Assembly: GCA_012735465.1 (NCBI GenBank)
Contig: JAAYHJ010000017.1
Location: forward strand, 1-39,005
Origin: Clostridiaceae bacterium
GTDB lineage: Bacteria; Bacillota; Clostridia; SK-Y3
Reading direction: 5' to 3'
Length of the DNA: 39,005 nucleotides
Positions 17,203 through 38,765 of this stretch are shown here, piece after piece; position 1 is the first letter of the stretch; each line of letters begins with the position of its first letter. Under the pieces are notes generated by a model. It made no database searches. It was given only the letters and a program-made list of their open reading frames with translations, and was not told the DNA's origin. The translations under genes were made by a program, and so were the position numbers.

Positions 17203-17214
17203 AATAACACCCTC

Positions 17215-20259: not shown

Positions 20260-20872
20260 GTTTTATCCCCCATTGAAAAACAGTGCCGTTCCCTTTTTTA
20301 GAGGTAATGGTTAAAAACATTACGATAAAGCTTATCACTCCATAGCATATGCAAATAGTGGACAAGGTACTTGTAAAAAGCAGCTCGTACTCTCTGCCGC
20401 TCATGGATAGCTCCAATACCGCGGCAACCCCGTTTTCATCCTGAACCGGTACGGCAACGGTTATATATCCCGGCTTGTAGCCGTCCTTAATACCTGCCGA
20501 AAATATTTCATTTTCTATTGTGTCCGCATATACAAGGTTTATCTCTTTCCTGGATTCCTTATCCAGTATCTGATTGTTTTCTATTGCCACTTGATATTTA
20601 CCATTGTTTTTTATCATAAACCGGTACTCAATTCCACTTTCTCCTTCTATTTTATTCATCATTTCAATTACCCTTGAAGAAACTCTATCCGCATCAAAAT
20701 CCTTTTTTATGTCATTTGCAATCAAGTGGGCATAAAGGATGAGTTTATCTTTTACTTCCTCAGAATAGGTGTCGTCAAATTGTCCCATAAATGTCACTAT
20801 TACAACCGTAATACATATTCCAACTGCTACTAATACGAATACACTGTTAAAAATTTCACTATTCCGTTTCAT
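20246..20872 (-). CDS. Two-TM protein with extracytoplasmic Cache-like domain
   Basis: This 208-residue protein has transmembrane helices at about 10-29 and 165-190 flanking ~130 extracytoplasmic residues. That segment contains a long helix (YSEEVKDKLILYAHLIANDI) and a sheet-like part with GYITVAVPVQDENGVAAVLELSM, the style of a single Cache domain from chemoreceptors and kinases. The cytoplasmic tail is short, so no signalling output is encoded. The ATG at 20872 follows AGGAGG by 7 nt; the more upstream TTG is unlikely. Its stop overlaps the MFS fusion gene by 14 nt, which suggests coupled translation and a joint membrane complex. Function unrecognised. Confidence 0.6.
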   Translation of the reverse strand: MKRNSEIFNSVFVLVAVGICITVVIVTFMGQFDDTYSEEVKDKLILYAHLIANDIKKDFDADRVSSRVIEMMNKIEGESGIEYRFMIKNNGKYQVAIENNQILDKESRKEINLVYADTIENEIFSAGIKDGYKPGYITVAVPVQDENGVAAVLELSMSGREYELLFTSTLSTICICYGVISFIVMFLTITSKKGNGTVFQWGIKHEEL

Positions 20873-20908
20873 GACCAACCTCCTGCTCTATTCCAAATGC
20901 ACAATTGG

Positions 20909-23083
20909 CTATACCACTTGTCTTGCAGCCATTTTGGCAAACAATCCGTTTTTCCTTATAAGCTCATCGTAAGTGCCTTCTTCCGCAATCACCCCTTTAT
21001 CTAAAACTATTATCCTGTCGCAGTTCTTGATTGTAGATAGTCGGTGGGCCACGATGATTTTTGTGCATTTTAATGCATCCAAGGCATCCGTTACCTGCTT
21101 TTGAGTAATATTATCAAGAGCACTGGTTGCTTCATCAAATATCAATATTTTGGGTTTTGCAGCAACAGCACGGGCAATCAGCAGCCTCTGTTTTTGACCC
21201 CCGGATATGCTCCGGCTGCCTTCGGATAATACCGTACTCATTCCCATAGGCATATTTCTTATATCCTCTTCCAGGCCTGCAATCCTTGCCGCTTCCCATG
21301 CATCCTCCAATGTGGCATTTGGTGCGGCAGCCACAATATTGGAAAATATGTCCCCACTCATTAGTTTGCTGTTTTGGAGGACCACACCTATTTTTTGCCG
21401 CACACTTTTTTTATCTATCCTGGCCAGGTCATAACTGTCAAAATACACAGACCCGGACACGGGCTCTTCAAAGCCCAGTATGAGGCGTATCAATGTGGAC
21501 TTGCCGCTGCCGCTACCGCCCACGATACCGACCGATTCCCCTGCATTAATCTTAAGGCTTATGTCCTTTAAAACCATGGGCAAATCATCGGCATATCTGA
21601 AATATACATGGCTTAGCTCTATTTCTCCTTTCAATTCCTTTATCTGGGGCTTTGCTCCTTCAATCTCGGGGACTTCTTCTAAAACAGGTAAAAGCATTTT
21701 ATAGAGGGGTTTAATATAGGACAGCGAATCGGTGATAAATGCCACTTCTAATATTGTAGAAATCAATGCGCCATAGGAAGCATTGAAAGCAATATAGTTT
21801 GAAGGGCTTATATCATATCTTATGGTTAAATAGTATATGACCATGCTTCCAAATAATATGATGGAATTTCTCAAAGCAGGACCTATCTTTAAAAACACGG
21901 GCGGACTGTATATCAGCTTGCTCTCCTTTGCATACTGCGTGGCCCATCTTGAAAAGGCCCTTTTTTTTGCGCCGGACAGCTTTATCTTAACTATACCGGA
22001 AAACAATTGATATACAAAGCCCTGCCTTTTTGCGTCCAAATCGGTTTTCAGGCTGTTTATCTTAATAGTCAGCACCATTGCAACAATAACTATTAAAATC
22101 AGTATAATTGCTACAACCCCTCCCCATCGGGCCAATTCCCTTGCAAATAGGTTCATCTGGAACCAATAAACAATCCCAAATAAAGCTGATAATAAAATGG
22201 TAACCATTTGTTCATTTACCAGTTCACAAAGGGCCATTGCGCTCATCACACGGCTTGCCAGCTCACCGGAGGAGTATTTTTTAAAAAAAACCGGCGATAA
22301 ATTCAATACCCTCATCATTATGGCACTTTGAAGCTGAAAACTTATTTTATCCTTCAGCCGGGACAGTATCATAACCCTTGTCATCCTGAACAATACTGTG
22401 GAAATGGCAACCCCCAGCAGCAGGCTGAACATAGGTATTATGTCTTCTTTTGTGCCCGACGGTATCAGGTATTCAAAAATTTGTTTGTTTAACAGCGGAT
22501 ATATCAGCCCCATAAGGCTGACCAGCAGGCTGGAAAACAATGCATAAAATACATCCGCCTTGTCCATAGCCTTGAATATGTACTTAAGCAGGTCATACAG
22601 GTTTAATTTTCGGGTAGGCAGCGGTTTATAAAAGCAGTAGGCTTCCTTTTTTATTGTCTCTTTATTATATTTATTTACTTTAATCCTTTTGTTTGCGTGT
22701 ACATCAAAGTAGGTATAACCGCCATCATTGGATGGGATTAGTGCAATCCTGTCACCCGAGGTTGTTTCAGCCAGCATCGGGCCCATTGCATCCCTCCACC
22801 AATTCCCCGTTAAGGTTACCTTCCTGCTCATGATATTGTTCACACTTAATAAATACTGTATCTGTTCATCCGATTGGGAAATTTCTTTGGGAATATCTAT
22901 ATATTTAGCTCCCAGGAACAGTAAGATTTCGATGACGGCATTGGCAGTGTCCTTTTCATATATCTTTTTATAATGACTAATGCTGTCTTTACGAATAGCT
23001 TCTGATAGGTTTAGAAAGGAATCCAACAGTTCTTCTTCTTCTTTTTGCAACCTGGTCTTGACCTTCTCATCAAAACTTTGCAT
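20909..23083 (-). CDS. NHLM-type ABC exporter, ATP-binding/permease without peptidase
   Basis: This 724-residue half-transporter has an N-terminal ~165-residue cytoplasmic region typical of the NHLM bacteriocin-system ATP-binding protein, with WWRDAMGPMLAE and YCFYKPLP. Six membrane helices follow (about 175-450), then the nucleotide-binding domain: Walker A GGSGSGKS at 522-529, signature SGGQKQR at 627-633, Walker B ILIFDEA with Asp650/Glu651, and the H-loop AHRLST. All are intact. The ATG at 23083 follows AGGGGG by 6 nt. It lies 29 nt after the peptidase-ABC gene. In NHLM systems the two ABC proteins are thought to work as a pair exporting modified peptides. Confidence 0.88.
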   Translation of the reverse strand: MQSFDEKVKTRLQKEEEELLDSFLNLSEAIRKDSISHYKKIYEKDTANAVIEILLFLGAKYIDIPKEISQSDEQIQYLLSVNNIMSRKVTLTGNWWRDAMGPMLAETTSGDRIALIPSNDGGYTYFDVHANKRIKVNKYNKETIKKEAYCFYKPLPTRKLNLYDLLKYIFKAMDKADVFYALFSSLLVSLMGLIYPLLNKQIFEYLIPSGTKEDIIPMFSLLLGVAISTVLFRMTRVMILSRLKDKISFQLQSAIMMRVLNLSPVFFKKYSSGELASRVMSAMALCELVNEQMVTILLSALFGIVYWFQMNLFARELARWGGVVAIILILIVIVAMVLTIKINSLKTDLDAKRQGFVYQLFSGIVKIKLSGAKKRAFSRWATQYAKESKLIYSPPVFLKIGPALRNSIILFGSMVIYYLTIRYDISPSNYIAFNASYGALISTILEVAFITDSLSYIKPLYKMLLPVLEEVPEIEGAKPQIKELKGEIELSHVYFRYADDLPMVLKDISLKINAGESVGIVGGSGSGKSTLIRLILGFEEPVSGSVYFDSYDLARIDKKSVRQKIGVVLQNSKLMSGDIFSNIVAAAPNATLEDAWEAARIAGLEEDIRNMPMGMSTVLSEGSRSISGGQKQRLLIARAVAAKPKILIFDEATSALDNITQKQVTDALDALKCTKIIVAHRLSTIKNCDRIIVLDKGVIAEEGTYDELIRKNGLFAKMAARQVV

Positions 23084-23112
23084 AATCATCCCCCTAAATG
23101 CAGCCCGTAATA

Positions 23113-25263
23113 CTAATACAATTGTACCAGTTCCTTGTATTTGCCTTCTTGTTTTATTAGCTCTTCATGAGTACCTCTTTGAATTACCTGGCCCTGTTCC
23201 AATACAATAATTTCATCGCAGTCCCTAATGGTTGAAAGCCTGTGGGCAATGATTATACATGTCATATTCCTTCTTTTTATAGCCTGCATTATTGCATGCT
23301 CCGTATTGGGGTCCAGAGCACTTGTCGCTTCATCCAAAATTATGATTGACGGGTTTATAGCAAGAGCCTTTGCTATTTCAAACCTTTGCCTTTGGCCTCC
23401 GGAAAAATTCCTGCCGCCCTCTATTATCTTGTGCATGTATCCTTCGGGCCTCGACATTATGTCGTCATGTATGCACGCATCCTTGCAGGCTCTAATGATG
23501 TCGGCTTCATCTATGGTATCATCCCACATGGTGATATTATCCTTTATCGTCCCCTCAAACATGGTGATCTCCTGATCCACCACGGCAACAGAACTGCTAA
23601 ATACCACGTCGTCAATCTCTTCTCTTGGCTTACCATCAAACAGGACTTGTCCGCTGTTCACTTTATATAACCCAACGATAAGCCGCGCAATTGTAGATTT
23701 ACCGCTTCCGGACCCGCCCACCAAAGCAACGCTGCTTCCTTTTTTTATGTCAAGGTTGAATCCTTTTATCAGGGGAGGCTCCAGCGGGTTATAGCCAAAG
23801 GTTAGGTCCCTTACCGTGATATTGCCGCTAAGCTGCTCGTACTTACGGGGTACGTCTTTATCTTTTTTTTCTTTTTTAGTCTCTGCCGGGTAATTCATAA
23901 CATCTTCAATTTGCTCCATTTTACCGCGCATATCCTGTATTACGCTTCCCGTTTCAACCAATGAATTTACCGGCTCCAAAAATGCTGCTGCAAAGCTTTG
24001 AAATGCTATCAACATACCAACGGTAAATTTTCCATCCAATACATAATATACTCCGGCTATCAAGATGATTATATTTGTGATATCCATCAATAAAACCGGT
24101 AATGCACTTAAATATACGGCCAGTTTATTAAAGGCCACATTTGAATTGTGATGTTTAGCCTGATATCCTGCCCATTTGCTGAAGTAAGCACCTTCAATCC
24201 CGCCGGATTTTATGGTTTCTATCATTTCTATCCCGGAAATTGTAAACCCCATCAGCTTTCCGTAATCCCGCTGCAATGCCTGGCTCTGACTTTCCCTTGT
24301 CTTTGAAACAATAAGCAGGGTAACAAGGTTTATCAATGCGGCTGCTACGCCTACAATTGTAAGAGGTATGCTGTAGGTCAGCATAATGCAGAGGTACAGC
24401 ACTATCATGAGCAGGTTTAGTATTATGGGGGCAAGCTTGGAGCATAAAACTTCCGCTATATCCTCATTGTTTTCCTGCCTTGAGGCAATATCTCCCACAT
24501 ACCTCTGGGTAAAAAATACCACCGGCAATGTCAGCACATGCCAGACAAATACAGCACTGGACACCAGAGCAAGCTTTGCCTTCATTTTGAGCAGATAGTT
24601 GCTCTTTAAAACATCCAGTATAAAGCTTATAAGCATGGTGATTCCCATTGCTGCCAGCAATAGGTTCATCCACTCCAACCTTTTGTTAAACAGGATATTG
24701 TCAACAAAAAATCTTGAATATAAGGGTATGATAATGCCTATCATTGAGGACAAAAAGCCTATTAACAAAATCAGAGTGATTACCTGTTTGCTTCCTTCCA
24801 ATCGTCTTACAAGATACATCAATACATTCTTGGGCTTTCCTCCCTTAACGAAGTTTTCACCCTTTTCAAAGGACAGTACTATGCCCGTAAAGGCACTGTC
24901 AAACTCCTCCAGGGAAACTTTTCTTACTCCGCTTTCCGGGTCATTTAAAACAGCATGTTTTTTTGTAAACCCATTTAAGACCACAAAATGGTTGAAATTC
25001 CAATGGATAATAACCGGAAAATCCATCTGCTTTAAAGATTCTACATCCTTTCTAAAAGCCCTGACCCTCAAGCCATAGGACATGGCTGCCTTTGCTATGT
25101 TCTTTGCATTACTCCCATCCCTTGACACTCCACATGCCACTCTAACTTCTTCAAGAGGAACATATTTGCCATGATAAGCAAGAATCATTGCAAGGGATGC
25201 CGCTCCGCATTCCACTGCCTCCATTTGCAATATAACAGGCACCTTTGCTATTTTCTTCCTCAT
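23113..25263 (-). CDS. NHLM-type peptidase-containing ABC exporter
   Basis: A 716-residue exporter of the peptidase-containing (PCAT) type. The N-terminal C39 peptidase domain (1-~140) has oxyanion Gln13, catalytic Cys19 in EAVECGAASLAMILAYHG, His92 in NHFVVLNGF and Asp108 in NDPESG, so the leader-cleaving site is complete. The membrane domain spans about 160-430. The ATPase has Walker A GGSGSGKS (516-523), SGGQRQR (621-627), Walker B with Asp644/Glu645 and the H-loop His674. The ATG at 25263 lies 9 nt after GGGGG; the ATG at 25272 directly abuts that site and is less likely. C39 enzymes cut after Gly-Gly or Gly-Ala leader ends during export. No substrate peptide gene is nearby. Confidence 0.92.
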   Translation of the reverse strand: MRKKIAKVPVILQMEAVECGAASLAMILAYHGKYVPLEEVRVACGVSRDGSNAKNIAKAAMSYGLRVRAFRKDVESLKQMDFPVIIHWNFNHFVVLNGFTKKHAVLNDPESGVRKVSLEEFDSAFTGIVLSFEKGENFVKGGKPKNVLMYLVRRLEGSKQVITLILLIGFLSSMIGIIIPLYSRFFVDNILFNKRLEWMNLLLAAMGITMLISFILDVLKSNYLLKMKAKLALVSSAVFVWHVLTLPVVFFTQRYVGDIASRQENNEDIAEVLCSKLAPIILNLLMIVLYLCIMLTYSIPLTIVGVAAALINLVTLLIVSKTRESQSQALQRDYGKLMGFTISGIEMIETIKSGGIEGAYFSKWAGYQAKHHNSNVAFNKLAVYLSALPVLLMDITNIIILIAGVYYVLDGKFTVGMLIAFQSFAAAFLEPVNSLVETGSVIQDMRGKMEQIEDVMNYPAETKKEKKDKDVPRKYEQLSGNITVRDLTFGYNPLEPPLIKGFNLDIKKGSSVALVGGSGSGKSTIARLIVGLYKVNSGQVLFDGKPREEIDDVVFSSSVAVVDQEITMFEGTIKDNITMWDDTIDEADIIRACKDACIHDDIMSRPEGYMHKIIEGGRNFSGGQRQRFEIAKALAINPSIIILDEATSALDPNTEHAIMQAIKRRNMTCIIIAHRLSTIRDCDEIIVLEQGQVIQRGTHEELIKQEGKYKELVQLY

Positions 25264-25280
25264 GAAATACATCCCCCTGA

Positions 25281-26171
25281 CTATTTTAAGAATAAATCGA
25301 TGGGCCTCCTTGTTTTATCCACAATAAGTATGTTACAGACAGTCCCAATGTCTACCTGCAAATTGCTTCCCTTCTTGTTTGACCACTTGATCAGGTTCTT
25401 TGAGTCCGGGTCAACTGTCAGAGAAATTCTAACTTCTACAGAATTTTCTTCCGGTAATATATCCCTTGAAAACTGAACAATACCCAAAGAATTTTCTATA
25501 TCCTCTTGGGTTACAGGATACTCCCCTATTTTCGTAATGAACCCCTGCATATATCCAAATTCTTCCCTTGGGGCAAATTCGGGAGATACCTGTGCCTCCA
25601 TACCTATCCTTATTTTCTTGGAATCAGCCATCCTTATATAGCCTATTATTTCTTTGGCATTGGTGTAGATATCCTGCTGTATGATTTTAGCAACAACTTT
25701 ATTACCGCCTACCATTTCACCTGTTTGAATAACATCAAGCACGATGCCCGATACCGGGGCAACAATTTTTGATTTGCTGTTATATTCCTCCATTGCTTCA
25801 TCTATTTCTTCCTGGGGTGCATTACCAGCCCGCAAGTCTTTTATTTTTTCTATAATGTCGTCCTGCGGTACTATGGCAATTACCTCACCAGCTTCCACGT
25901 ACTCACCCTTTTTTACATGCACATCGCTAACCATTCCCTCCGCACTGTGTATGACACTGCTTACTCCTCTTTCGGGGAATACAATCCCTTTTATGGATAT
26001 GCTGTCAGAAATATTGCCGGTAAACGCCCATACGAGAACGGCTGCAAAAATGCTGAAAAAGGCTGCCACTATTATAAAAACTCCAGGATTGGTCACTTTT
26101 ACATATTCATCCAGTTGCTCCGGCGAAGATAATTTGTCTAAGCTTTCTTCCCTGTATAAGCCTCTAGTCAT
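25281..26171 (-). CDS. NHLM-type HlyD-family secretion adaptor
   Basis: A 296-residue membrane-fusion (HlyD-type) protein. Near the N-terminus it carries SLDKLSSPEQLDEYVKVTNP, closely matching the LSSPEQLDQLM signature of NHLM bacteriocin secretion proteins. One TM helix follows (about 31-52). A biotinyl-lipoyl-like beta region (HSAEGMVSDVHVKKGEYVEAGEVIAIV) and a short coiled hairpin come next. It then returns to the beta barrel (IVAPVSGIVLDVIQTGEMV). The ATG at 26171 follows AAGGAGGCGGGATA; an ATG at 26207 precedes that site. It overlaps the lipoprotein gene by 8 nt and is 17 nt from the peptidase-ABC gene, so all are co-translated. Confidence 0.9.
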   Translation of the reverse strand: MTRGLYREESLDKLSSPEQLDEYVKVTNPGVFIIVAAFFSIFAAVLVWAFTGNISDSISIKGIVFPERGVSSVIHSAEGMVSDVHVKKGEYVEAGEVIAIVPQDDIIEKIKDLRAGNAPQEEIDEAMEEYNSKSKIVAPVSGIVLDVIQTGEMVGGNKVVAKIIQQDIYTNAKEIIGYIRMADSKKIRIGMEAQVSPEFAPREEFGYMQGFITKIGEYPVTQEDIENSLGIVQFSRDILPEENSVEVRISLTVDPDSKNLIKWSNKKGSNLQVDIGTVCNILIVDKTRRPIDLFLK

Positions 26172-27330
26172 TATCCCGCCTCCTTCCAAAGGTGTCAATG
26201 AATTCAAATCTTCCGTCCATGCATTTTAAGTATTGGGGTTTTCTGTCCACCATCCTGCCCAATGAATCAAATTTTAATTTGCCGCCTATTCCCGTATATC
26301 CTTCACCATTTTTTATCTGTTTTGCAATTTCCACCGGGTCATTGCTACCAATGGAAACAGCCGTATCTATTACCAGCCTTGCACAGTCATATCCATGAGC
26401 CGCCCATTGAGTGGGTACTTTTCCATACTTGTCTTCATACCTTTTATTAAACTCATCAAGCTTTGGGCTTTGCTCCAGGGACATGGGCGATACGATTACG
26501 GTTCCTTCGACCTGGGATTTATACTTCATCAGCAGGTCTTCCATGTCAAGGGCATAATCACCAAGAATCTTTATGTCCGGGTTCCTTGCCTTTATGTTGT
26601 TTAAAATATAAAAGGCATCATCTTCAAAATATTGGCTGATTACCACTGCTTCCACACCCAGGCTTTTCCAGCGTTCATAAGCACGGTTAAAATCTTCCTG
26701 GGATAAGGCAGAACAGGTACAATCCAATACCTTTACATTAGTTTCTTTTGCATAATTTATGAATGCCCTTGCTATAGTTGTTTCATATTCTCCTTCACTG
26801 TGGACAATTGAAACTTTAGGAATGTTATTCTGACTTGCATACTCTACCAGGAACTTTGCAGTTTCTTCCGCACCAAAAGTGGTACTGAAAACATTTTCAT
26901 ACCCCCTTTTTATAGTGCTGTCAAGTATACCGTGAGGGGCAATCATTATCTTGCCGGCATCATCCAATATACCGGCGGCTGCATCCAATATATCAAAATT
27001 ATGAGACCCTAGAACAGCCGTTACTTTATCATCATTTGCCAGTTTATTTGTAATGATCATTCCTTTCTCATAATCCGAATAATCGGGTAAATACTCGTAT
27101 GATATTTTATATCCCAAGGACTCATATTCCTTATTGGTATCTTCCACAGCCATAGCTACGCCGTTTTTAAAGCTGTCATCATAGCTGAAAATCAAATCGG
27201 AGCCGGTTATTACTATGTGTATAGGCCTGACCACATCCTCTTCTTTCTTGCTGCAACCAATCACACAAATAGCAAGCATAAAAAATAAAAAGACAATCCG
27301 GCTGAACTTATTCTTTCCCAATTCCAGCAC
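26164..27330 (-). CDS. Lipoprotein solute-binding protein, type I periplasmic-binding fold
   Basis: A 388-residue lipoprotein: a hydrophobic leader ends in the lipobox VIGC with Cys26. The rest is a Leu/Ile/Val-type (Peripla_BP_6) binding protein, with segments such as DDKVTAVLGSHNFDILDAAAGI, KIMIAPHGI, KVSIVHSEGEYETTIARAF and WAAHGYDCARLVIDTA. No cognate permease or importer ATPase lies in the window. The start is GTG at 27330; a TTG three codons later (27321) would be better placed relative to GGGGGTG and cannot be excluded. It is the first gene of the export operon, behind a promoter at 27382-27410. The ligand is unknown; an amino-acid-like or peptide signal is possible. Confidence 0.82.
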   Translation of the reverse strand: MLELGKNKFSRIVFLFFMLAICVIGCSKKEEDVVRPIHIVITGSDLIFSYDDSFKNGVAMAVEDTNKEYESLGYKISYEYLPDYSDYEKGMIITNKLANDDKVTAVLGSHNFDILDAAAGILDDAGKIMIAPHGILDSTIKRGYENVFSTTFGAEETAKFLVEYASQNNIPKVSIVHSEGEYETTIARAFINYAKETNVKVLDCTCSALSQEDFNRAYERWKSLGVEAVVISQYFEDDAFYILNNIKARNPDIKILGDYALDMEDLLMKYKSQVEGTVIVSPMSLEQSPKLDEFNKRYEDKYGKVPTQWAAHGYDCARLVIDTAVSIGSNDPVEIAKQIKNGEGYTGIGGKLKFDSLGRMVDRKPQYLKCMDGRFEFIDTFGRRRDND

Positions 27331-28430: not shown

Positions 28431-30812
28431 TCAGTTAAATAATCTATAAATAATGGTTGCCGCTTCCGCTCTTGTAGCATTTCCTTCCGGATCGGCTATG
28501 TTGCCGGGTTTGCCGGTAATCAGTCCGTTTTTCACTGCAATAGCCAAGGATTGCCTTGCATACCCTGCAATTTTTCCCTTATCGGCAAAATTAATGTATT
28601 TGTCCACATCTGCCGGAGCCTCCTGCTGTAGTGCCCTTGCAAGCATCACCGCCATATCCTGACGGCTTATATTTTCATTGGGTGCAAAGGTGCCATCGGG
28701 CCTTCCGGTGATAATTCCGGCCTCATAGGCGGAAGCCACATATATTTCATACCAATCGCCGCTCTTTACATCTTTAAAATTGGACCGGGCACTGCTATTC
28801 ACCAGTCCCAACGTCATGGTTATCATCTTTGCAAATTCTGCCCTGGTTACCTTCCCTTCCGGGTCAAAGATATCCTTGCTCTTTCCGTTAACAATTCCCT
28901 TGGAAGCCATGGCTTCAATCCATTTCCTGCCCCAGTGGTCTTCTTTTACATCCTTAAAGGTAACTATGTTGTTTTTTACTACAAATCTGCCCAACCGGGT
29001 GGTATTAAATATAAGCTCTTCCTCTTCTGCATCATATCGGGCGCTCATATTTGCCACCGTACCGTCGTCACCTAAATAAAACACGGTTATGGTATCACCG
29101 GTTTCCCCTGCCTTTAGCTTATAGGGAACGTATATTATTATTGGCTTTACAAACTCATCAACTTTAAATACCAGTCCCCCGGCAATGGCAACCTCCGCTT
29201 CAAATGTAAGGACTTTACTACCTGGTTTCGCAACCTCCTTCTGGTCAGGTGCCAGGGAATCAAATTCCTGCTGTGTAATTAAAGCTTCAGCAGCACTCAG
29301 CTCAATGGTTTTAACCATCTGCATATTCATCATGGAATCAAGGGTTACAACCGCCCTGCCTATTTCAGATACGAACTCAACCTTTTTTATACCTTTCCCC
29401 AAAGCCTTTGTAACTATATCTTTATTTAAACCAATGGAATACTTGCCTCCTGCTCTTGTGCCGGATAGATTGATATAAATTTTGTTTTCCAATGATATAT
29501 CCAAACCGCTTTTGGACACCGCCTGCTGCAGCCTGCTAATCAAGGCAAGCACCTGGTCCATTTTGGTATCCAATTGCTGATATTTAGATTCATCGGTTAC
29601 AATGGAAGCATCAACGGTACCGGTTTTTTTGATAACAGAAAGCATAAGCTTTCTTAACCCAGGCACCACTGTTTTTTGCCCGGCTTCATCATTTATCGGT
29701 GAGGCACTGCTTATTATGGATACAACCGCATCATTAATCTTAGGCAAACTGCTCTCGTCCGCAGTATTCTTTACCGCAGTATTGATGCTATTTAAAGCCT
29801 TTACAATCAGCTCCAGCATTTGCTGTTTTGATTCCCCGGCTTCTGCCATTACACTAAAGCAACTGCCTAACTCCCGGGCAAGCTCTGCTATCATCTCTGC
29901 TTTTTGTGAAGCGGACGCTTTTTCCAGCTCATCGATCATTTTCTGCAGTCCATCCATATGTTCTTTCACCTGGCCCGACTCAACAGGAGGGTTAACAACT
30001 CCACCTTCTCCGCCGCCGGTAGATGGGTTGGAACCTGGCTCCTTAAAAGGATCGCCTTCATAAAGCTTATAGTTTTCACTGCCCAGGAACACTTTCAATG
30101 CCCGGATTTCTTCGTTGGGCCGGCTGTTTATGGTTTGTTCCGCAAAGCTTAACAATTTTTCAAAATTATTTGAACCGGGGTAAGAACCAATGGTATCCTT
30201 CAGGGAGGCCAAGAGCCCCAGAAAACCGGAAATCCTTGCCTTTTCATTTTCATATCCGTCCAACTGGAACTTTATCTTACTGACAGGTGTTCCGTCCTTG
30301 GCTACCGGTTTTTCTGTGTAATATCTTGCCTCAAGCATAACCGTTATGAAAAACCTAAACCCGCGCATATCCGATGAATCCCCAGCAATGGTTTCATTGA
30401 ATATGCTACAGATACCCTGAAAGCCGCTTATGTCTTCTTTTATATCTTCCAGCCCTTTAATGATTAAGGCAATAAGTACAAATTTCCCTTCCTGTGAACG
30501 ATTTGCGTAAATTTTAAGGGCATCCTTCATTTCCGTATCGGATAAAACATTTACCCACTGCTTAACTCCTGAAATGGTTTCTGCATTTATATCTTCAGCT
30601 GTTTCAATATTTAAGGCCAAATAATCGGTAAGGTCCACCCTGTCATCAAAGTCAAGGGACATGGCTTCAATTAAAAACCTCTGAAACGGGTCAATGTCTG
30701 CGGCTGCATATGCGCTGACCGGTTTGACGGCAATCCCCGTGACTGCCTGCAGCAGCATCATCAAAGCTACAAGGAGACATTTCCACTTTTTTTTACTGCT
30801 TTCATACTTCAT
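28431..30812 (-). CDS. S-layer homology (SLH) surface protein with shared helical domain
   Basis: A 793-residue secreted protein. A signal peptide (cleavage near 36-38, after SAYA) is followed by one copy (about 41-253) of the helical domain shared with the next two genes. Then come a Gly/Pro linker (258-280), a helical region (280-437) and a beta-rich region (438-615). Three SLH domains close the protein (about 619-667, 678-727 and 739-790), with the motifs VTRAE, ISRQD and ATRAE. SLH triplets bind pyruvylated secondary wall polymer, so it is probably wall-anchored. The ATG follows GAGGGG by 9 nt and is 37 nt after the previous gene, so the two are co-transcribed. Function unknown beyond the anchor. 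Confidence 0.85.
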   Translation of the reverse strand: MKYESSKKKWKCLLVALMMLLQAVTGIAVKPVSAYAAADIDPFQRFLIEAMSLDFDDRVDLTDYLALNIETAEDINAETISGVKQWVNVLSDTEMKDALKIYANRSQEGKFVLIALIIKGLEDIKEDISGFQGICSIFNETIAGDSSDMRGFRFFITVMLEARYYTEKPVAKDGTPVSKIKFQLDGYENEKARISGFLGLLASLKDTIGSYPGSNNFEKLLSFAEQTINSRPNEEIRALKVFLGSENYKLYEGDPFKEPGSNPSTGGGEGGVVNPPVESGQVKEHMDGLQKMIDELEKASASQKAEMIAELARELGSCFSVMAEAGESKQQMLELIVKALNSINTAVKNTADESSLPKINDAVVSIISSASPINDEAGQKTVVPGLRKLMLSVIKKTGTVDASIVTDESKYQQLDTKMDQVLALISRLQQAVSKSGLDISLENKIYINLSGTRAGGKYSIGLNKDIVTKALGKGIKKVEFVSEIGRAVVTLDSMMNMQMVKTIELSAAEALITQQEFDSLAPDQKEVAKPGSKVLTFEAEVAIAGGLVFKVDEFVKPIIIYVPYKLKAGETGDTITVFYLGDDGTVANMSARYDAEEEELIFNTTRLGRFVVKNNIVTFKDVKEDHWGRKWIEAMASKGIVNGKSKDIFDPEGKVTRAEFAKMITMTLGLVNSSARSNFKDVKSGDWYEIYVASAYEAGIITGRPDGTFAPNENISRQDMAVMLARALQQEAPADVDKYINFADKGKIAGYARQSLAIAVKNGLITGKPGNIADPEGNATRAEAATIIYRLFN

Positions 30813-30849
30813 TCATCCAACCCCTCTTCTATATGGTTTTATTCTCACT

Positions 30850-31953
30850 TTACTGCCTTGGGATATATATAACATCGGAAAGGGGAACCATGCTTGTTGT
30901 CATCAAATCCGTACCTTCCCATACAAAGGCTTTTGCACTGTACCCCGTAACATCGGGAGGCAGCCTGAAACCTGCCGTCATATTTTCAACCCCGTTATTT
31001 GGTACATTTTTAGATATGTAAGCTACATTTTCCATAAGGTTTTCGTCGTTATAAAGGGCGACAATGACCAAGACATCTTTTGCATCGCCGGATGTATTTG
31101 TAACACCAACGTCCACTGACAGATGTCCGTCAGCTATCAGTTCCTCTGCAATGGAACCGTCAATTTTAAATACCGCATCTATTTCAAAGGGAGGTACAAC
31201 CGGATAAGGATCCCCCTCATACAAATTGCCGTTATTACTCAAAAACACCTTAAAAGCAGCAATTTCTTCATTGGGACAGCTGTTAACATTTTGTTCCGTA
31301 AAGCTAAGCAGCTTTTCAAAATTATTGGCTCCCGGGTAGGAACTGATGGTTTGCTGCAAAGTTTTCAAAAGACCAATCATTGAAGATACCTGCTGTTTTT
31401 CTTCTTCAAAGCCTTGAATCTCCAGTTTTATCTTCGTAGGAGGAACACCGTTCTTTGCAATGCTCTGACCCGTTCTCATCCACGCCTGGTACATTACTGT
31501 TATAAAAAAGCGGAGTCCACGAATATCCGATGCATCTCCTGCAATGGTTTCGTTAAGCAGGTCTCTAATGGATGGAAACCCTTCCGTGCTCCCCTGCAGC
31601 CTACGAAGCCCATAGAATATCAGGTATGTAATTGCTGTTTTACCGTCCCTGGAACGTGCTGCAAAGATTTCCAATGCTTCTTGGACATCGGAATAAGACA
31701 TCACCGGCACGTAGGAATGAACTTTTGAAACATGCTCAGGTGTAACATCTTCTGGCGAGTTGATATTATCCAGCATATACTCGGTCAAAGCGTCCCGGTC
31801 ATCATAGCTTAAGCTCATGGATTCAATCATGAATCGCTGAAACGGATCAATTTCTGCAGCAATAACTTGTATCGGATTCACAAGCCCCGCTGTTGCGTAC
31901 TGCAGCAGCATAAAAAATATTATTAAAGCGCTTTTCCATCGTTTCCTCTTCAT
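30850..31953 (-). CDS. Secreted protein with shared helical domain and C-terminal beta domain
   Basis: A 367-residue exported protein: signal peptide (about 1-33), one copy of the shared domain (about 36-248), and a C-terminal beta-rich domain (256-367). The shared domain has EIDPFQRFMIESMSLSYDDR, GDASDIRGLRFFITVM and NNFEKLLSFTEQNVNS. The C-terminal domain ends FVWEGTDLMTTSMVPLSD and is clearly homologous to the end of the 606-residue protein upstream. It has no SLH or sortase signal, so it is either released or held by its SLH-bearing neighbour. The ATG at 31953 is preferred; a GTG nine bases upstream is possible. Confidence 0.75.
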   Translation of the reverse strand: MKRKRWKSALIIFFMLLQYATAGLVNPIQVIAAEIDPFQRFMIESMSLSYDDRDALTEYMLDNINSPEDVTPEHVSKVHSYVPVMSYSDVQEALEIFAARSRDGKTAITYLIFYGLRRLQGSTEGFPSIRDLLNETIAGDASDIRGLRFFITVMYQAWMRTGQSIAKNGVPPTKIKLEIQGFEEEKQQVSSMIGLLKTLQQTISSYPGANNFEKLLSFTEQNVNSCPNEEIAAFKVFLSNNGNLYEGDPYPVVPPFEIDAVFKIDGSIAEELIADGHLSVDVGVTNTSGDAKDVLVIVALYNDENLMENVAYISKNVPNNGVENMTAGFRLPPDVTGYSAKAFVWEGTDLMTTSMVPLSDVIYIPRQ

Positions 31954-31988
31954 TCGCTCCACCTAGTACAACCCCTTTCCTTTTTTTA

Positions 31989-32004
31989 TGTTATCATTAT
32001 AACA
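31989..32004 (-). promoter_or_regulatory. Extended -10 promoter within a palindrome
   Basis: TATAAT (31996-32001) is preceded by TG at the extended -10 position on the minus strand; no convincing -35 is seen. The -10 lies inside the palindrome TGTTAT-CATT-ATAACA (31989-32004), which could be an operator. It drives the 367- and 793-residue protein genes. Confidence 0.5.
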
Positions 32005-32052
32005 CAGAGCAGGCCTTCACACCACACCTTTTTAAATCTGTTTTTTATTGCC

Positions 32053-32100
32053 AAAAGGGGCGACTCCTTTGCCTGTCAGGCAAAGAAATCGCCCCTTTTT
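32053..32100 (-). terminator. Strong terminator after the 606-residue protein gene
   Basis: An 11-bp outer stem (AAAAGGGGCGA at 32053-32063 with its complement at 32089-32099) encloses a second 7-bp stem CTTTGCC/GGCAAAG. It is flanked by T runs on both strands and lies 13 nt after the stop codon. Confidence 0.85.
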
Positions 32101-32112
32101 TGTAAAATCCGC

Positions 32113-33933
32113 TTATTCAGCAGCAGGAATTTTACTTATTTCAGAAAGAGGTACCATGGTAGAATTAATAATATCAGTTCCTTCCCATACAAAAACTCTT
32201 GCTTCATATCCGGTCACATCGCTTGGAAGCCTGAAGCCTCCCATCAGCTTTTCTTCAGCTTCCGCCACTACTTTTTTGGTATTATATGAGACGCATTCCA
32301 TGATTCCCGAATCCCCATCAATTTTATACAAAGCTATAATCAGCAGTGCATCCACATCTTCAGCGGAATTATTTTTAACCGTCACTTCTGCATTCAGTAT
32401 GCCGTTACTTATCAGTTCAGTGGCATCTTTTCCGTCAACCGTAAATTTGGTTTCAATATCAAACATTAAAGGTGGCTCATACATACCGCCATTGTTATAT
32501 AAGAAGGACTTAAATGCAGTCACTTCCTCGGCACCAAAGCTGTTTACGGTTGTTTCAGCATAGTTCAGCAGTTTTTCAAAGACATCTTCTCCGTCATACT
32601 TAATAATCTTATTGTACAAAGTTTCTATGTACGGAAGCAATGAATTAATATGGTCTCTTATGGTAGCCTGTAATGCAGTCGGTATCTTAAATTTTAACTT
32701 CCATCTGGCATCTTCGCCATCAACTACAATCACGCCTTCTGCATCTTCCGGCAGCTCTTCCTGTATTTTCTTAAGCACTTCTACCATGAGAATCAATCCG
32801 CGATTATCATTTTTATCGCCGGTTACATTGTAATTGATCCTTTCAGCAATGCTTTCAAATCCGGGCATATAAACTATATCGCTTGACAAATCAATTTCAC
32901 GTATTGCTTGCTTCAATGCATTTCTTCTACCTTCACTGACTTCCAAATATTTTTCCAATCCGCGGGTAATATCGTCCACCGATACGCTTGGGAAGAAACC
33001 TTTTGCAGCATCAACTACCTGCGAAGTTACCACGCCGCTTTCGTCTAACGGCTTAAGCACCTTTTCTATGAATTCTTCCTTCTTCTGTGGAGTATTCAGG
33101 CTCAATACCTGCAGCAATACCACCTGAAGCGGATTAAGGTTTGATGCTTCTCCTTCGTAAATACCGCCGTTGGCTGCTAAAAATTTTTTAAATTCAGCCA
33201 CTTCTTTAGCATAGTTATTTGCTGTAGTTTCGGCATAGTTCAGCAATTTTTCAAAGGCATCTTCTCCCTCATACCCATCAATTTTATTGTACAGGGTTTC
33301 AATATGGGGAAGCAATGCATTAGCCTTTGCCCTTATTGCATCCATCAATGCAGCAGGAATTGAAAACTTAATCTTGTCTGCATCTTCCGGGTCATCAATT
33401 ACGATAACACCGTCGGAATCAGCCGGCAGGTTCTTCTGGATCTTGTTTAAAATCTCAATCAACAGCTTCATGCCACGCATGTCATTTTCATTGCCGGTTA
33501 CCTGTAAATTGATCTCTTTTGCTATGCTTTCAAATCCGTCAGCCATGTTTAATTCCCTTGTAAGATCAATGTCAAGAATTGCATTTATAACTTCTGTCTT
33601 CTTGTTTATCCCAACATAGCTTTCCAATCCCGTGCGAATATCTTCTTCCGACATGTTAGGGAAATATTGCTTGGCTTCTGCTACCAAATCGTCTGTAACA
33701 TCTCCTGCATCTTGTGCGTTCTTCAACGGCTCAAGAACGTCACTTACAAATTGAGCCCTTTGACTTTGGTCCAAATCCATGGCGTCCAAAAGTACCCTTT
33801 GAAGCGGATTTAATTGGGCTTGTCCATCTTCTGCAAAAACGGTTGGGATACTTGTAAATAATAAGCACAATGATAGCACAACACATAAGATTTTACTAAA
33901 GGATTTTAAATATAAACCTCTCTTTTGCCTCAA
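32113..33933 (-). CDS. Secreted protein with two tandem shared helical domains
   Basis: A 606-residue exported protein. A signal peptide ends at about VFA-ED (34/35). Two tandem copies of the shared domain follow (41-262 and 266-487), then the C-terminal beta-rich domain (489-606) ending VFVWEGTDIINSTMVPLSE. The two copies align closely: LNPLQRVLL/LNPLQVVLL, LLPHIETLYNKI/LLPYIETLYNKI, FEKLLNYAETT and NGGIYE/NGGMYE. The start is a TTG, 9 nt after AAGGAGG, and no ATG lies nearby in frame. It is followed by a strong terminator and preceded by a ~200-nt leader. No SLH domain or LPXTG is present. The family is not one I recognise. Confidence 0.78.
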   Translation of the reverse strand: MRQKRGLYLKSFSKILCVVLSLCLLFTSIPTVFAEDGQAQLNPLQRVLLDAMDLDQSQRAQFVSDVLEPLKNAQDAGDVTDDLVAEAKQYFPNMSEEDIRTGLESYVGINKKTEVINAILDIDLTRELNMADGFESIAKEINLQVTGNENDMRGMKLLIEILNKIQKNLPADSDGVIVIDDPEDADKIKFSIPAALMDAIRAKANALLPHIETLYNKIDGYEGEDAFEKLLNYAETTANNYAKEVAEFKKFLAANGGIYEGEASNLNPLQVVLLQVLSLNTPQKKEEFIEKVLKPLDESGVVTSQVVDAAKGFFPSVSVDDITRGLEKYLEVSEGRRNALKQAIREIDLSSDIVYMPGFESIAERINYNVTGDKNDNRGLILMVEVLKKIQEELPEDAEGVIVVDGEDARWKLKFKIPTALQATIRDHINSLLPYIETLYNKIIKYDGEDVFEKLLNYAETTVNSFGAEEVTAFKSFLYNNGGMYEPPLMFDIETKFTVDGKDATELISNGILNAEVTVKNNSAEDVDALLIIALYKIDGDSGIMECVSYNTKKVVAEAEEKLMGGFRLPSDVTGYEARVFVWEGTDIINSTMVPLSEISKIPAAE

Positions 33934-34328
33934 CGTATACGACCTCCTTAGTTAAAAATTATAATTAATGACTCCCTTTATGAACATATGCCCAAAGCCC
34001 CGGCTTGTTCAAACATACATTCACTAAAAGAGAGCATAAAACTACCGAGGTATCACTTTCTAGGCAGAGATTCTACACTGTAGGCTCGTTTAAGCTTATT
34101 AACAAATCTCCAGCTCACCCTATAAGGATAAAGATACCCATTTTTATTGTATACCATCTTCTGGTGTATTTTCAAGCTTATTATGTTACAGTTTCATTAC
34201 AATCCTTTTCCTTATTGTATCATGTAACTTCCAGCTCTTCAATAGTCCATACACCCTATGTAATAATTAATGAACAGACTGTTAAAAATAATACTGATTT
34301 TTTATTAATAAACAAGCGGAGGTGCAAT
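33934..34328. other. Divergent intergenic region (395 bp)
   Basis: This gap separates the 606-residue surface protein (minus) from the glucan phosphorylase (plus). It contains the promoter at 34148-34175 and a ~200-nt minus-strand leader with several possible stems, including GAGATT/AATCTC at the ends of a ~45-nt branched unit. No convincing plus-strand promoter was found and no known riboswitch was recognised. An open frame upstream of the phosphorylase start is not credible coding. Confidence 0.5.
34148..34175 (-). promoter_or_regulatory. Possible promoter for the 606-residue protein gene
   Basis: TTGAAA (34170-34175) and TATACA (34148-34153) with a 16-nt spacer on the minus strand. Matches are 5/6 and 4/6. 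The implied leader is about 205 nt. Confidence 0.4.
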
Positions 34329-36917
34329 ATGTACTTTTTTGAAAAAATAATGGTTATCCCCATGCTACCGGATAGAATCAACCGCCTTAACGACTTTGCC
34401 TACAATCTTTGGTGGTCATGGAATCCACACACCCTTCAGGTATTTGAAAAAATAGATGCCGAACTGTGGGCCGCATGCAATAAGAATCCCGTCTTATTTC
34501 TTCAAAATGTCAGTACCCGGAAGCTTAACGAGGCTGCAAGCAATCATGATTACCTTGCCCTGTATGACAGGACAATAAAGGAGTTTGACAATTACATGCA
34601 GGCAGAGGACACATGGTATGCCAGGAATTTTCCGGATAAAAAAGACAATATAATCGCATATTTTTCCAGCGAATACGGCCTGCATGAAACCCTTCCCATT
34701 TATTCAGGGGGCCTGGGTGTCCTGTCGGGCGACCACTGCAAATCGGCCAGTGATTTAGGCTTACCCTTTGTAGCCGTAGGGCTGTTTTATAAACAGGGCT
34801 ATTTCACCCAGCAGATAAACTTTGAAGGTTGGCAGGAAGCAAGGTTTATACATCATAATGTCTCCGAGTTGCCCATCCGCCCTACAACGGACCAGAACGG
34901 AAATGAAATCATCATAGCCATTCCTTTCCCCGGCAGGACGGTATATGCTAAAGTATGGGAAGTGCATGTGGGGCGCATAATAATTTACATGCTGGATACG
35001 GATGTACCGGACAACAGCCCGGAGGACCGTACCATAACCTCCATACTGTACGGGGGAGACCAGGAAACCCGCATATCCCAGGAAATCGTGCTGGGCATAG
35101 GAGGCATAAAAATGCTTGATGCCCTTGGGATTACCCCTTCTGTTTACCACCTGAACGAAGGCCATTCCGCCTTCTGCGTTTTGGAAATCATGCGCAAGCT
35201 GATACAGGAGGAGGGGCTGACCTTTGAAAATGCAAAGGAAGTGGTTGCCGCATCCACCATCTTTACCACCCATACCCCCGTTCCCGCCGGAAGCGACCGT
35301 TTTCCCCTGTACTTAATGGACAAATACTTCAGCCACTATTGGGGCAGCTTACATATCAGCCGCCACCAGTTCATGGAGCTAGGGGTCAATGCCCTCTCCG
35401 ATTCACCGGAAGTATTTAATATGACCTTTTTTGCTTTAAAGATGTCCGGGCAGCGCAATGGGGTAAGCAAATTACATGGAATGGTGTCAAGAAATATTTT
35501 CAACAGCGCATGGCATGAAATTCCCGAAGAAGAGGTACCCATTACATCAATTACCAACGGGATTCATACCAAGACATGGCTAAGCCCGCCTATGAAACAG
35601 CTTTTTGACCAGGCCATGGGAGCAAACTGGGAAAACCATATCCCTGATACGAGCATGTGGGAAGAAATTGAAAACATATCCGACGAAGCCTTGTGGAACG
35701 CCCACATGATAAATAAGCGGAAAATGATTGACTATATAAGGCAGAGGGTGCGGAAACAAAGGATTAGAAACGGCAGCTCCACCGAAGACGTGGAAAAAAC
35801 AGTGGATTTGCTCAAATGCAATGCCCTTACCATTGGATTTGCCAGGAGATTTGCAACCTATAAAAGGGCTACATTATTTTTCAGAAACCTGCCCCGGCTG
35901 CAGAGAATACTAAATAACCCGGCCATGCCGGTACAGATTATTTTTGCGGGAAAGGCCCATCCTGCCGATTATCCGGCACAGGAGCTCATCAAACGCATAC
36001 ACGACCTGGCCAACAGCGAAGAATTTAAGGGTAAGATATTGCTGATAGAAAATTATGATATGGAGCTGGCACGTTACCTGGTAGCCGGAGTTGACATATG
36101 GATGAATACCCCCCGGAGGCCCCTGGAGGCAAGCGGTACCAGCGGCCAAAAGGCTGCATTAAACGGCACCATTAACTTCAGCGTACTGGACGGTTGGTGG
36201 GCGGAAGCCTATAACGGGTATAACGGCTGGGCAATAGGGGACGGCAATTACTACCCCGATGCGGAACAGCAGGATTATATTGATTCTATTTCACTGTACA
36301 GCACATTGGAAGACCAGATTATCCCTTTGTATTTTGACAGAAATGAAAATGATGTGCCCGTAAACTGGGTGAAAAGGATGAAAGCTTCCATTAAATCCTG
36401 TGCACCGGTGTTTAGCACCGACCGCATGGTCCAGGAATACACCAGGCAACTGTATGTAAATGCCATGAATAAAACGGGGCAGATGGTAAAAGACCATTAT
36501 GCATTGGCAAAGGAATTATCCAAATGGAAAATGGAAGTAGCCAATCAATGGCACAGCGTAAGGATAATCCCCGACCGTAAATTAAACTATCCGTTTGACT
36601 ACAAGGTACCGGCAGGAAAGCCAATAGAATTATGTACAAATGTGTATCTAGGAAACATCGATCCTAAAAATGTACGGGTGGAAGTGTATTACGGACGGAT
36701 TGCCCCCGACGGAACCATAGAAGAACCCAAGACCGCCGTAATGGAACTGCAGCAGGTAAGCGGGGATAATACCTGTCTTTACAAAGGCACTATTTTTATT
36801 GAGTCAGGTGGCGAACACGGATATACCTTCCGGGTAATACCATACCGCCCTGAACTAATCCATGAATACGACCTGGGGCTTATCAAATGGGTTGATATTA
36901 ACGAAAGCAGGCATTAA
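34329..36917 (+). CDS. glgP: Alpha-glucan (maltodextrin/glycogen) phosphorylase
   Basis: The GT35 enzyme releases glucose-1-phosphate from alpha-1,4-glucan with pyridoxal phosphate. The protein is 862 residues and of the 'short/archaeal' type: an N-terminal DUF3417 domain (about 1-105, with RINRLNDFAYNLWWSWNP) precedes the phosphorylase core. The PLP site PLEASGTSGQKAALNG is at 598-613, with Lys608 as the Schiff-base lysine. A segment FSSEYGLHETLPIYSGGLGVLSGDH marks the N-terminal catalytic lobe. The ATG at 34329 follows GGAGGTGCAAT; the frame is open upstream but lacks coding character. It is the only plus-strand gene and probably acts in storage-glucan turnover. glgP is a family name; malP is possible. 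Confidence 0.93.
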   Translation: MYFFEKIMVIPMLPDRINRLNDFAYNLWWSWNPHTLQVFEKIDAELWAACNKNPVLFLQNVSTRKLNEAASNHDYLALYDRTIKEFDNYMQAEDTWYARNFPDKKDNIIAYFSSEYGLHETLPIYSGGLGVLSGDHCKSASDLGLPFVAVGLFYKQGYFTQQINFEGWQEARFIHHNVSELPIRPTTDQNGNEIIIAIPFPGRTVYAKVWEVHVGRIIIYMLDTDVPDNSPEDRTITSILYGGDQETRISQEIVLGIGGIKMLDALGITPSVYHLNEGHSAFCVLEIMRKLIQEEGLTFENAKEVVAASTIFTTHTPVPAGSDRFPLYLMDKYFSHYWGSLHISRHQFMELGVNALSDSPEVFNMTFFALKMSGQRNGVSKLHGMVSRNIFNSAWHEIPEEEVPITSITNGIHTKTWLSPPMKQLFDQAMGANWENHIPDTSMWEEIENISDEALWNAHMINKRKMIDYIRQRVRKQRIRNGSSTEDVEKTVDLLKCNALTIGFARRFATYKRATLFFRNLPRLQRILNNPAMPVQIIFAGKAHPADYPAQELIKRIHDLANSEEFKGKILLIENYDMELARYLVAGVDIWMNTPRRPLEASGTSGQKAALNGTINFSVLDGWWAEAYNGYNGWAIGDGNYYPDAEQQDYIDSISLYSTLEDQIIPLYFDRNENDVPVNWVKRMKASIKSCAPVFSTDRMVQEYTRQLYVNAMNKTGQMVKDHYALAKELSKWKMEVANQWHSVRIIPDRKLNYPFDYKVPAGKPIELCTNVYLGNIDPKNVRVEVYYGRIAPDGTIEEPKTAVMELQQVSGDNTCLYKGTIFIESGGEHGYTFRVIPYRPELIHEYDLGLIKWVDINESRH

Positions 36918-36918
36918 T

Positions 36919-36960
36919 AAAAGGGAAATCAAGGAGACAGCTCATCCTGATTTCCCTTTA
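36919..36960. terminator. Bidirectional terminator between convergent genes
   Basis: AAAGGGAAATCA and TGATTTCCCTTT form a 12-bp stem flanked by T-rich tracts in both directions. It begins two bases after the phosphorylase stop, and one arm contains the TGA stop codon of the minus-strand gene (36929-36931). Confidence 0.85.
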
Positions 36961-38248
36961 TTTTACCACAGTAAATGAAGAAGATGATGGCAATAAGTTG
37001 AAAGTGCATCCCTATATCAATAAAGGAATGAAGCAAAATAATGGCCAACAGGGCTAAATTAAATATATCATCCCGGTGTTTTTTTAAGGATGTGTACAGT
37101 ACATTCACTGTAAATATTAAAAATGCCGTAAAACCAATCAATCCTACATCCGTCAACACCTGCAAATAATAATTATGTACGTATTTTACATAGTCCGCTG
37201 CATAGCTTTCACAAAGTACAGCCCATCCCATACCCCCCGAACCCAATAAAGGATAATCGTTTATAATGCGAATTGCTCCTTTATAATATGCCATCCGTGC
37301 TGCCCATTCGGTGGCATCCAGGCGAATATCCTTGATACGATTATAAACCGGGCTGCTAAAAAGGTGCAACATCGGCAAGCTAACAATCATTGCAGCCTCG
37401 ATTGCCCATACATAAACCCCCTGCTTCAAAAAGTCAGGAAGGATGCACAAAAAAATCCCTGTCAGAAGTATTCCTGCAAACCAAGCGGCAGAATTACAAG
37501 AAGACAAAGCCACCGCCGTGATGCATGAAACTAATGCAATATAAACATACCTTATTTTTAAATTGCGAGGGTCATGACAATTGGAAACCCGGTAAAAGAC
37601 CAGGCCCATGCTTAAAATAAATAAAAGTATCCATACCCCTCGTGAGTAGGTCAATATCAACCCACACATCAATAAAAAGATATATACATTGTATAACGTC
37701 CTTTTTTTAGCCTCTGCCATCCTTTTTACCGTTAAAACAATACCCATCAGCATATAAACTGCAGCAACATTGGCATAATGAAGAGTAGACTGTATCCTTC
37801 CCTCATATAAAGCACCTTCCAAAAAAATAAGTCCTGATAATACCGCAAGGCCTAAAAGGCTTACCATTACACTCGAAAGGACTATGCCCTTTTCCATCCA
37901 CTTTATGCGACTGCTGTCCCACATAAAACCAACCATATATGCAGGAATAAAGCCTGCCACCCTCAATGCCTCATATATGGCACCTTCCCTGTTCACCCCA
38001 TATAAAGCGGATAAAAAATACAGTGCTACAAATACAAAAAGAGAAACGGTAGCCCCTTCATAAGGCAGCTTCCTTCTCTCATGGCATGCTAATAACCCTG
38101 CATATAAAATGATTATGAGATTGGCAAATATATATTGTTTAAAAAAATAAAATCCTTGCAAAAATGCCCCGGCGACAAAAAAAATCATGACAGCAATTCC
38201 TTCCACTGCCTTTATACCATTTATTATCGTTGCGCCGGCCCTTTTCAT
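36929..38248 (-). CDS. O-antigen ligase / Wzy-like polytopic membrane protein
   Basis: A 439-residue protein with about 11-12 membrane helices and the Wzy_C (O-antigen ligase, PF04932) pattern. NDYPLLGSGGMGW sits before a periplasmic segment, and YVHNYYLQVLTDVGLIGFTAF matches the HNxYLxxLxxxGLxG signature. Such proteins ligate or polymerise surface glycans carried on lipid; in Gram-positives they act on exopolysaccharide or wall-glycan precursors. The ATG at 38248 follows GTGGAGG by 6 nt; an upstream reading to 38323 overlaps the previous gene. It is 22 nt after the coiled-coil protein gene. No glycosyltransferases lie in the window, so the glycan cannot be named. Confidence 0.8.
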   Translation of the reverse strand: MKRAGATIINGIKAVEGIAVMIFFVAGAFLQGFYFFKQYIFANLIIILYAGLLACHERRKLPYEGATVSLFVFVALYFLSALYGVNREGAIYEALRVAGFIPAYMVGFMWDSSRIKWMEKGIVLSSVMVSLLGLAVLSGLIFLEGALYEGRIQSTLHYANVAAVYMLMGIVLTVKRMAEAKKRTLYNVYIFLLMCGLILTYSRGVWILLFILSMGLVFYRVSNCHDPRNLKIRYVYIALVSCITAVALSSCNSAAWFAGILLTGIFLCILPDFLKQGVYVWAIEAAMIVSLPMLHLFSSPVYNRIKDIRLDATEWAARMAYYKGAIRIINDYPLLGSGGMGWAVLCESYAADYVKYVHNYYLQVLTDVGLIGFTAFLIFTVNVLYTSLKKHRDDIFNLALLAIILLHSFIDIGMHFQLIAIIFFIYCGKIKGNQDELSP

Positions 38249-38270
38249 TTTTATCCTCCACAACTTTATA

Positions 38271-38765
38271 TCATGGTTTCTGGTAAATATCTCTTTGTAC
38301 GTCTGACCGCCCTGGGATGACATAAGTATTCTGCCTTGCCTGGGATGACTGACCTGGCTGTGATGTGCCCGTACCCTCTTTTAGCCTTTCCAATTCCTCA
38401 GCTATTGCTTTTGAATATTCCTCTATATCTTCTAACTCTTCAATCCTCATCTCATATTTTTTTATTTGCTCTTTAAGTCTGCTAATCTCTTTATCCTTTT
38501 CTTTTATTTTCTCTTCTAAATCAGAAATTATAACTGCCTGCTCCTTAACTATATCTCTTGCATTTTTTACATCGCTGCGTTCTGCGGTAATTTTTTTATA
38601 AGATATATAAAATGAGAGTAAAAACAATACTGTCAGTACAACTACGGCTCCACCTGTAACTAAGGCAAATCGACGCATTTTTTTTATTTTCTTTTTCTTT
38701 TCCTTATTTCTTACCTTTTCTATTCCTTCTACCTTTTCTATTCCATCTAATACATGCTCATTCAT
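38271..38765 (-). CDS. Single-TM coiled-coil protein
   Basis: A 164-residue protein with a very basic N-terminal cytoplasmic part (KVRNKEKKKKIKKMRR), one TM helix (about 34-55) and a long charged coiled coil (about 60-130, with Leu/Ile heptads). A Ser/Gln/Gly-rich tail ends QRDIYQKP. The topology recalls division-linked or polysaccharide chain-length proteins, but no family motif is recognisable. The ATG follows GGAGGTTCGTA. It is the first gene of a two-gene unit with the O-antigen-ligase-like protein and probably acts with it at the envelope. Confidence 0.7.
   Translation of the reverse strand: MNEHVLDGIEKVEGIEKVRNKEKKKKIKKMRRFALVTGGAVVVLTVLFLLSFYISYKKITAERSDVKNARDIVKEQAVIISDLEEKIKEKDKEISRLKEQIKKYEMRIEELEDIEEYSKAIAEELERLKEGTGTSQPGQSSQARQNTYVIPGRSDVQRDIYQKP

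Follow-up and report, generated by a model that had tools for sequence, protein, structure and literature searches.

What is the domain that recurs four times in three neighbouring genes for secreted proteins on a contig of a Clostridiaceae bacterium (GCA_012735465.1, JAAYHJ010000017.1), and what might it do outside the cell? The window, by which we mean the whole 39,005 bp stretch of that contig analysed here, had drawn an original prediction, made from the letters alone, of a helical domain of no named family shared by proteins of 606, 367 and 793 residues. We find that it is a new, unnamed, all-helical domain within a known kind of protein (SLH surface proteins and their relatives), and that elsewhere in the Clostridia it is strongly tied to an exopolysaccharide locus, a tie previously unreported as far as we searched. 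Our preferred explanation, to which we give about an even chance, is that the domain is a wall-anchored surface-coat module that probably organises cell polysaccharide, with putative roles in glycan binding and lattice formation.

One homologous domain in four copies

The three genes are consecutive open reading frames (ORFs) on the minus strand, arranged head to tail with gaps of 150 and 37 bases, and their predicted positions and sizes were correct, the second protein being 370 aa long, or 367 aa if counted from an in-frame ATG (Table 1). Sequence inspection reveals a clear signal peptide at the N-terminus of all three. SLH repeats are found only in the 793-aa protein, which has three (PF00395, E 1.6e-34), and are absent from the 606- and 370-aa proteins, so that the cluster does mix anchored and unanchored forms as had been proposed. 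A promoter scan of the cluster scored no higher than shuffled sequence. The window genome (2.3 Mb, 98.6% complete) carries the domain in this three-gene cluster alone, according to a profile search of the genome.

End-to-end alignment recovers four full-length copies of approximately 215-225 residues with 30+ invariant columns, two of them in tandem within the 606-aa protein, as predicted. Pairwise BLAST groups the copies as two pairs, with 50% identity between the two 606-aa copies and 54% between the 370- and 793-aa copies (E 1e-72 to 1e-84 within pairs), and 25-28% identity across the pairs (E 4e-15 to 1e-26). This similarity is far above chance, and the four copies are one homologous domain; all match the wider family described below across their whole length. 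The fixed motifs of the original prediction are present approximately, but their strict forms vary: two copies (606-aa copy 1 and that of the 793-aa protein) have the whole first motif (QR...AM), whereas 606-aa copy 2 lacks R and AM and the 370-aa copy reads SM instead of AM; NDNRG and SDMRG are further variants of the NDMRG/SDIRG block, and one copy has YEP in place of the final YEG. Near-invariant positions are few (N102, G114, N192 and K203 in 370-aa copy numbering), and no catalytic motif is found among them.

Neither single proteins nor 4- and 23-row profiles had a credible match in Pfam, NCBIfam or PHROGs, and a sequence search of the PDB with the domain gave no significant match, in keeping with the claim that no well-described family accounts for it. 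Matches to Helicase_Sgs1 and Glyco_hydro_70 fell below cut-off and were rejected as spurious. The AlphaFold2 model of the 370-aa copy, built from the 23-row alignment, bears out the helical character with high confidence (mean predicted local distance difference test score, pLDDT, 96; predicted template modelling score, pTM, 0.90), consisting of eleven helices and one small two-strand hairpin. Both 606-aa copies were modelled with lower confidence (mean pLDDT 82) and have their 11 helices and two strands in the identical order; the fold comparison thus covers these three copies, the 793-aa copy being 54% identical to the 370-aa copy. The best Foldseek match in the PDB had an E of 0.33 and a template modelling (TM) score of about 0.2, with annexin in the top rows, and the best VIA-align result was a Z of 4.6 across 66 residues. 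Fold searches of the PDB and a viral model library, including one with the tandem model, therefore returned nothing significant, which by itself does not prove a new fold.

Distribution, architectures and relatedness

The family extends far beyond the cluster to which the original prediction had confined it, and is present in at least five Clostridia families. It occurs in all 14 sampled genomes of the Acetivibrio thermocellus family (here f187), 4 of 5 genomes of a second family (f218) and 2 of 6 of the window's own. These counts draw on several samples: a first contig scan with the four-copy profile found no match and a second found only Petroclostridium sp. X23, in which a profile search identifies two SLH proteins with the domain; a class-wide sample of 391 genomes yielded f187 and single genomes of f22 and f30, the f30 match being partial because it lies at a contig end; and a search around the f187 genome G730 returned the 14 f187 genomes and four of f218. 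A 398-genome phylum sample contained only the window and false matches, from which the domain appears confined to some clostridial families. Matches discarded on inspection were a Ser/Thr kinase (L023), a C_GCAxxG-type protein (L028), a chemoreceptor-like protein (L118), a phage-like protein (L119), two aldehyde dehydrogenases (L130, L131) and a HipA-like protein (L132).

The commonest architecture, that of f187, is one to four tandem domain copies followed by three C-terminal SLH repeats. Elsewhere in the family, single-domain secreted proteins of approximately 265-295 aa with no anchor also occur (L097, L101, L104). Two relatives carry modules of the cellulosome: one combines a cohesin (PF00963, E 9e-15) with the domain and SLH (L022), and the other has a cohesin-like N-terminus, recognised by eye, the domain and a type I dockerin (PF00404, E 4.8e-9; L083). 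These would fit a module for adhesion or scaffolding in the attachment to plant fibres, as in cellulosome-associated surface parts, but Pfam finds neither PF00963 nor PF00404 in the three window proteins and both modules are missing from most members, and we consider this explanation very unlikely. The dockerin-bearing protein belongs to a cluster of four large secreted proteins (L083, 2909-18269), at least two of which have cohesin-like N-termini by eye.

In a tree of the copies, the two 606-aa copies join with 100% support, as do the 370- and 793-aa copies. The two pairs are not sister groups, as Petroclostridium and another clostridial genome sit between them, with weak support (68-79%). 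The local duplication that had been suggested is therefore partly upheld, and the cluster probably reflects local duplication of two older copy types. The 793-aa protein matches a Petroclostridium protein (L025) across its entire mature length (E 7e-69), and also the C-terminal half of L084_7 (E 2e-84), whose gene adjoins those of a small membrane protein and Wzz.

The exopolysaccharide locus and the role of the domain

In the 12 of 14 f187 genomes with enough flanking sequence, CpsB_CapC comes immediately 3' of the domain-SLH gene on the same strand, and then come a small membrane-anchored protein without a Pfam match and Wzz fused to AAA_31 (a BY-kinase-like AAA domain). The same CpsB-small protein-Wzz order occurs at one locus each in two f218 genomes (G783, G800), so that the arrangement is kept across two families. 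Many loci continue with LoaP/NusG-like, Rfb, GDSL-lipase or glycosyltransferase genes, and a HIT-family gene is usually upstream. CpsB is rare, at one or two per genome. As a control we compared the SLH matches listed for six genomes, with and without the domain: CpsB is found within 3 kb of 6 of 8 domain-SLH genes and of 0 of 94 other SLH genes (Fisher p 2e-8, a value inflated by kinship, as the genomes are related and their synteny counts are not independent events). Both exceptions are second paralogues in one genus (g426), that of G660 lying beside thyA/dfrA.

The small membrane-anchored proteins regularly found beside CpsB form a family of their own with no Pfam counterpart (~190-230 aa, with an acidic linker and a conserved C-terminus of ~50 residues; examples are L079:8810-9373, L080:7115-7732, L084:6331-6945 and L111:8915-9490, among others). 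At a Petroclostridium locus (L112:11285-15819) two SLH proteins come after CpsB and its small partner; their SLH is N-terminal and they lack the helical domain, different SLH proteins thus occupying the same position.

The place of the domain gene at the head of the locus, next to CpsB, the small secreted or membrane protein and Wzz, could also mean that the domain aids polysaccharide assembly outside the membrane, guiding the chain from Wzz/Wzy or attaching it to the wall, and does not hold the finished polymer. We think this improbable: SLH anchoring would place the protein at the outer wall, distant from the membrane complex, copies exist outside the locus, and the near-invariant residues suggest no catalysis.

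Our preferred explanation, that of a polysaccharide-organising coat module, starts from the homology of the copies, their confident fold, secretion signals, SLH anchor and conserved locus, all of which are observed. Clostridial surface-coat proteins would be built from the domain as an extracellular, all-helical unit, one to four copies of which form the N-terminal, outward part of the secreted protein. SLH trimers bind secondary wall polymer (PMC6081394), which is pyruvylated in studied cases (PMC3039559), and the three C-terminal SLH repeats would grip this polymer; the window genome has a match to pyruvyl transferase PF04230, an enzyme required for SLH anchoring, in a 376-aa frame (G000 contig C1). 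Since the domain-SLH gene opens the CpsB-(small membrane protein)-Wzz locus, gene order suggests that coat protein and polysaccharide are probably produced together. At the cell surface the helical domains may then hold, space or cross-link the polysaccharide. In the window lineage the family would have left the locus and expanded to one anchored (793 aa) and two unanchored (606 and 370 aa) proteins, and the latter may associate with the former; the originally suggested surface assembly around a single anchored member is plausible. We put forward only tentatively a more specific proposal: the SLH-anchored domain proteins, a widespread clostridial class whose fold would so far be absent from the PDB, would attach to the polymer made by the neighbouring CpsB-Wzz locus and thereby tether it to the cell.

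Several observations weigh against this explanation in addition to the kinship of the compared genomes. No glycan-binding signature or fold was found in the domain. The window cluster (contig C95) is not beside CpsB, which in that genome is on contig C10, adjoined by a homologue of the small membrane protein and by no domain gene. The sole polysaccharide gene near the cluster, encoding a Wzy_C protein, is not adjacent but one gene away, with a gene on the opposite strand between. The Petroclostridium copies and the second g426 paralogues are also outside the locus, and two of the three window proteins have no recognised anchor. Viewed on its own, the pairing of CpsB and small protein on C10 indicates that the locus exists in the window genome without the helical-domain gene.

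We take G730 to be A. thermocellus ATCC 27405, whose three neighbouring SLH genes at 3.63 Mb fit OlpB/Orf2/OlpA. Its domain-SLH gene (1,661,038-1,663,167) is separated from SecA (at 1,690,806) by 16 ORFs (17 if a doubtful 63-aa ORF is counted), and the SLH matches list no further gene in this interval. SecA is Cthe_1385 (PMC5327387), and by this gene spacing, not by locus tag, the domain-SLH gene is Cthe_1368. The latter has been described as an SLH gene with high expression in biofilm and planktonic cells and no other conserved domain, and as possibly encoding the primary S-layer protein (PMC5327387).

That identification, 17 genes before SecA, favours a different account, in which the domain is the lattice-forming part of a true S-layer protein: tandem domains would pack into a paracrystalline coat anchored by SLH, with no handling of exopolysaccharide, and shared regulation of anchor polymer and coat would be the sole reason for the position of the gene next to the polysaccharide locus. 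S-layer genes are known to adjoin wall-polymer loci, as with spaA/slhA of Paenibacillus alvei. However, the S-layer protein seen in membrane preparations was another one, Cthe_2348 (PMC3039559), which leaves Cthe_1368 a candidate for 'primary' status, and a copy number of one to four among close relatives, together with unanchored and single-domain forms, would be unusual for a lattice subunit. We regard the lattice account as a possibility of lesser probability than a polysaccharide-organising coat, and judged from sequence both are compatible with the data.

If polysaccharide is indeed held in this way, it would constitute non-covalent, SLH-based tethering of exopolysaccharide, and the candidate main surface protein of A. 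thermocellus would be a polysaccharide-holding coat. The domain family now has a confident structure model, for which no match among known folds was found, and its strictly placed polysaccharide locus makes a role testable; it bears on what joins clostridial S-layers to exopolysaccharide, and on the identity of the main coat protein in a model cellulose degrader.

Neighbouring features and known relatives

The coordinates of the cluster, its domains and the nearby Wzy_C gene are collected in Table 1.

Table 1. Features of the domain cluster and its surroundings in the window
Feature	Position	Strand	Content or basis
606-aa secreted protein	32113..33933	-	Signal peptide, two tandem domain copies, C-terminal Ig-like-type module; without SLH
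Domain copy 1 of 606-aa protein	33151..33819	-	BLAST, profile match, structure model
Domain copy 2 of 606-aa protein	32473..33144	-	BLAST, profile match, structure model
C-terminal module of 606-aa protein	32116..32472	-	~95 residues (FVWEGTD..MVPLS); common to about 40 other genome proteins
370-aa secreted protein	30850..31962	-	Signal peptide, one domain copy, C-terminal module as in 606-aa protein; without SLH
Domain copy of 370-aa protein	31213..31857	-	BLAST, profile match, model (pLDDT 96, pTM 0.90)
C-terminal module of 370-aa protein	30853..31206	-	BLAST, genome search
793-aa wall-anchored protein	28431..30812	-	Signal peptide, one domain copy, Gly/Pro linker, helical and beta middle region, three SLH repeats
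Domain copy of 793-aa protein	30054..30701	-	BLAST, profile match
Three SLH repeats (wall anchor) of 793-aa protein	28434..28976	-	PF00395; SLH match 28650-28781; boundary toward middle region approximate
Wzy_C / O-antigen-ligase-like membrane protein	36929..38323	-	PF04932, E 1.2e-11

The C-terminal module of the two unanchored proteins (..GFRLPxDVTGxxxKxFVWxG..MxPLS; L004-L020) ends 0-4 residues ahead of the stop codon in 13 of 16 of its bearers checked, and had no convincing match in Pfam or by sequence in the PDB; it could serve in sorting or attachment. Elsewhere in the window, a same-strand series of genes (16315-27330) resembles a peptide-export cluster: it encodes a substrate-binding protein, an HlyD-like protein, a C39-peptidase ABC exporter, a second ABC exporter, a 210-aa protein that belongs to no family, an MFS protein whose N-terminus is long and an LPG_synthase_C protein. 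A glucan phosphorylase ORF (34005-36917) begins at a TTG that adds about 110 residues ahead of the first Pfam domain, and its true start is therefore probably an internal ATG near residue 108. A ribosomal protein L10 leader RNA (RF00557) lies on the minus strand at 13713-13858. In another genome (G604:C1, 451-464 kb), four tandem SLH proteins, each about 1200-1250 aa long and all with the same best SLH score, form a recent gene array.

Among known systems, cohesin/dockerin scaffold proteins resemble the family through the two relatives that pair the domain with one of those modules, and differ from the window proteins, which have neither. The three SLH repeats of the 793-aa protein place it with SLH (PF00395) proteins at large, from which the cluster is distinguished by an ectodomain of a new family and by two members without SLH. 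SlhA and SpaA of P. alvei are likewise SLH-anchored surface proteins with genes beside polysaccharide genes (PMC3776848, PMC6081394), and are set apart by published descriptions as having other ectodomains; deletion of slhA, which lies beside the wall-polymer locus, halved exopolysaccharide and affected biofilm formation and swarming (PMC3776848), which offers an analogy for the preferred explanation. Cthe_1368, in which no such domain was recognised when it was described (PMC5327387), lies in the CpsB-Wzz locus, unlike the window genes, and is homologous to them by sequence, with two copies of the window domain and three SLH repeats.

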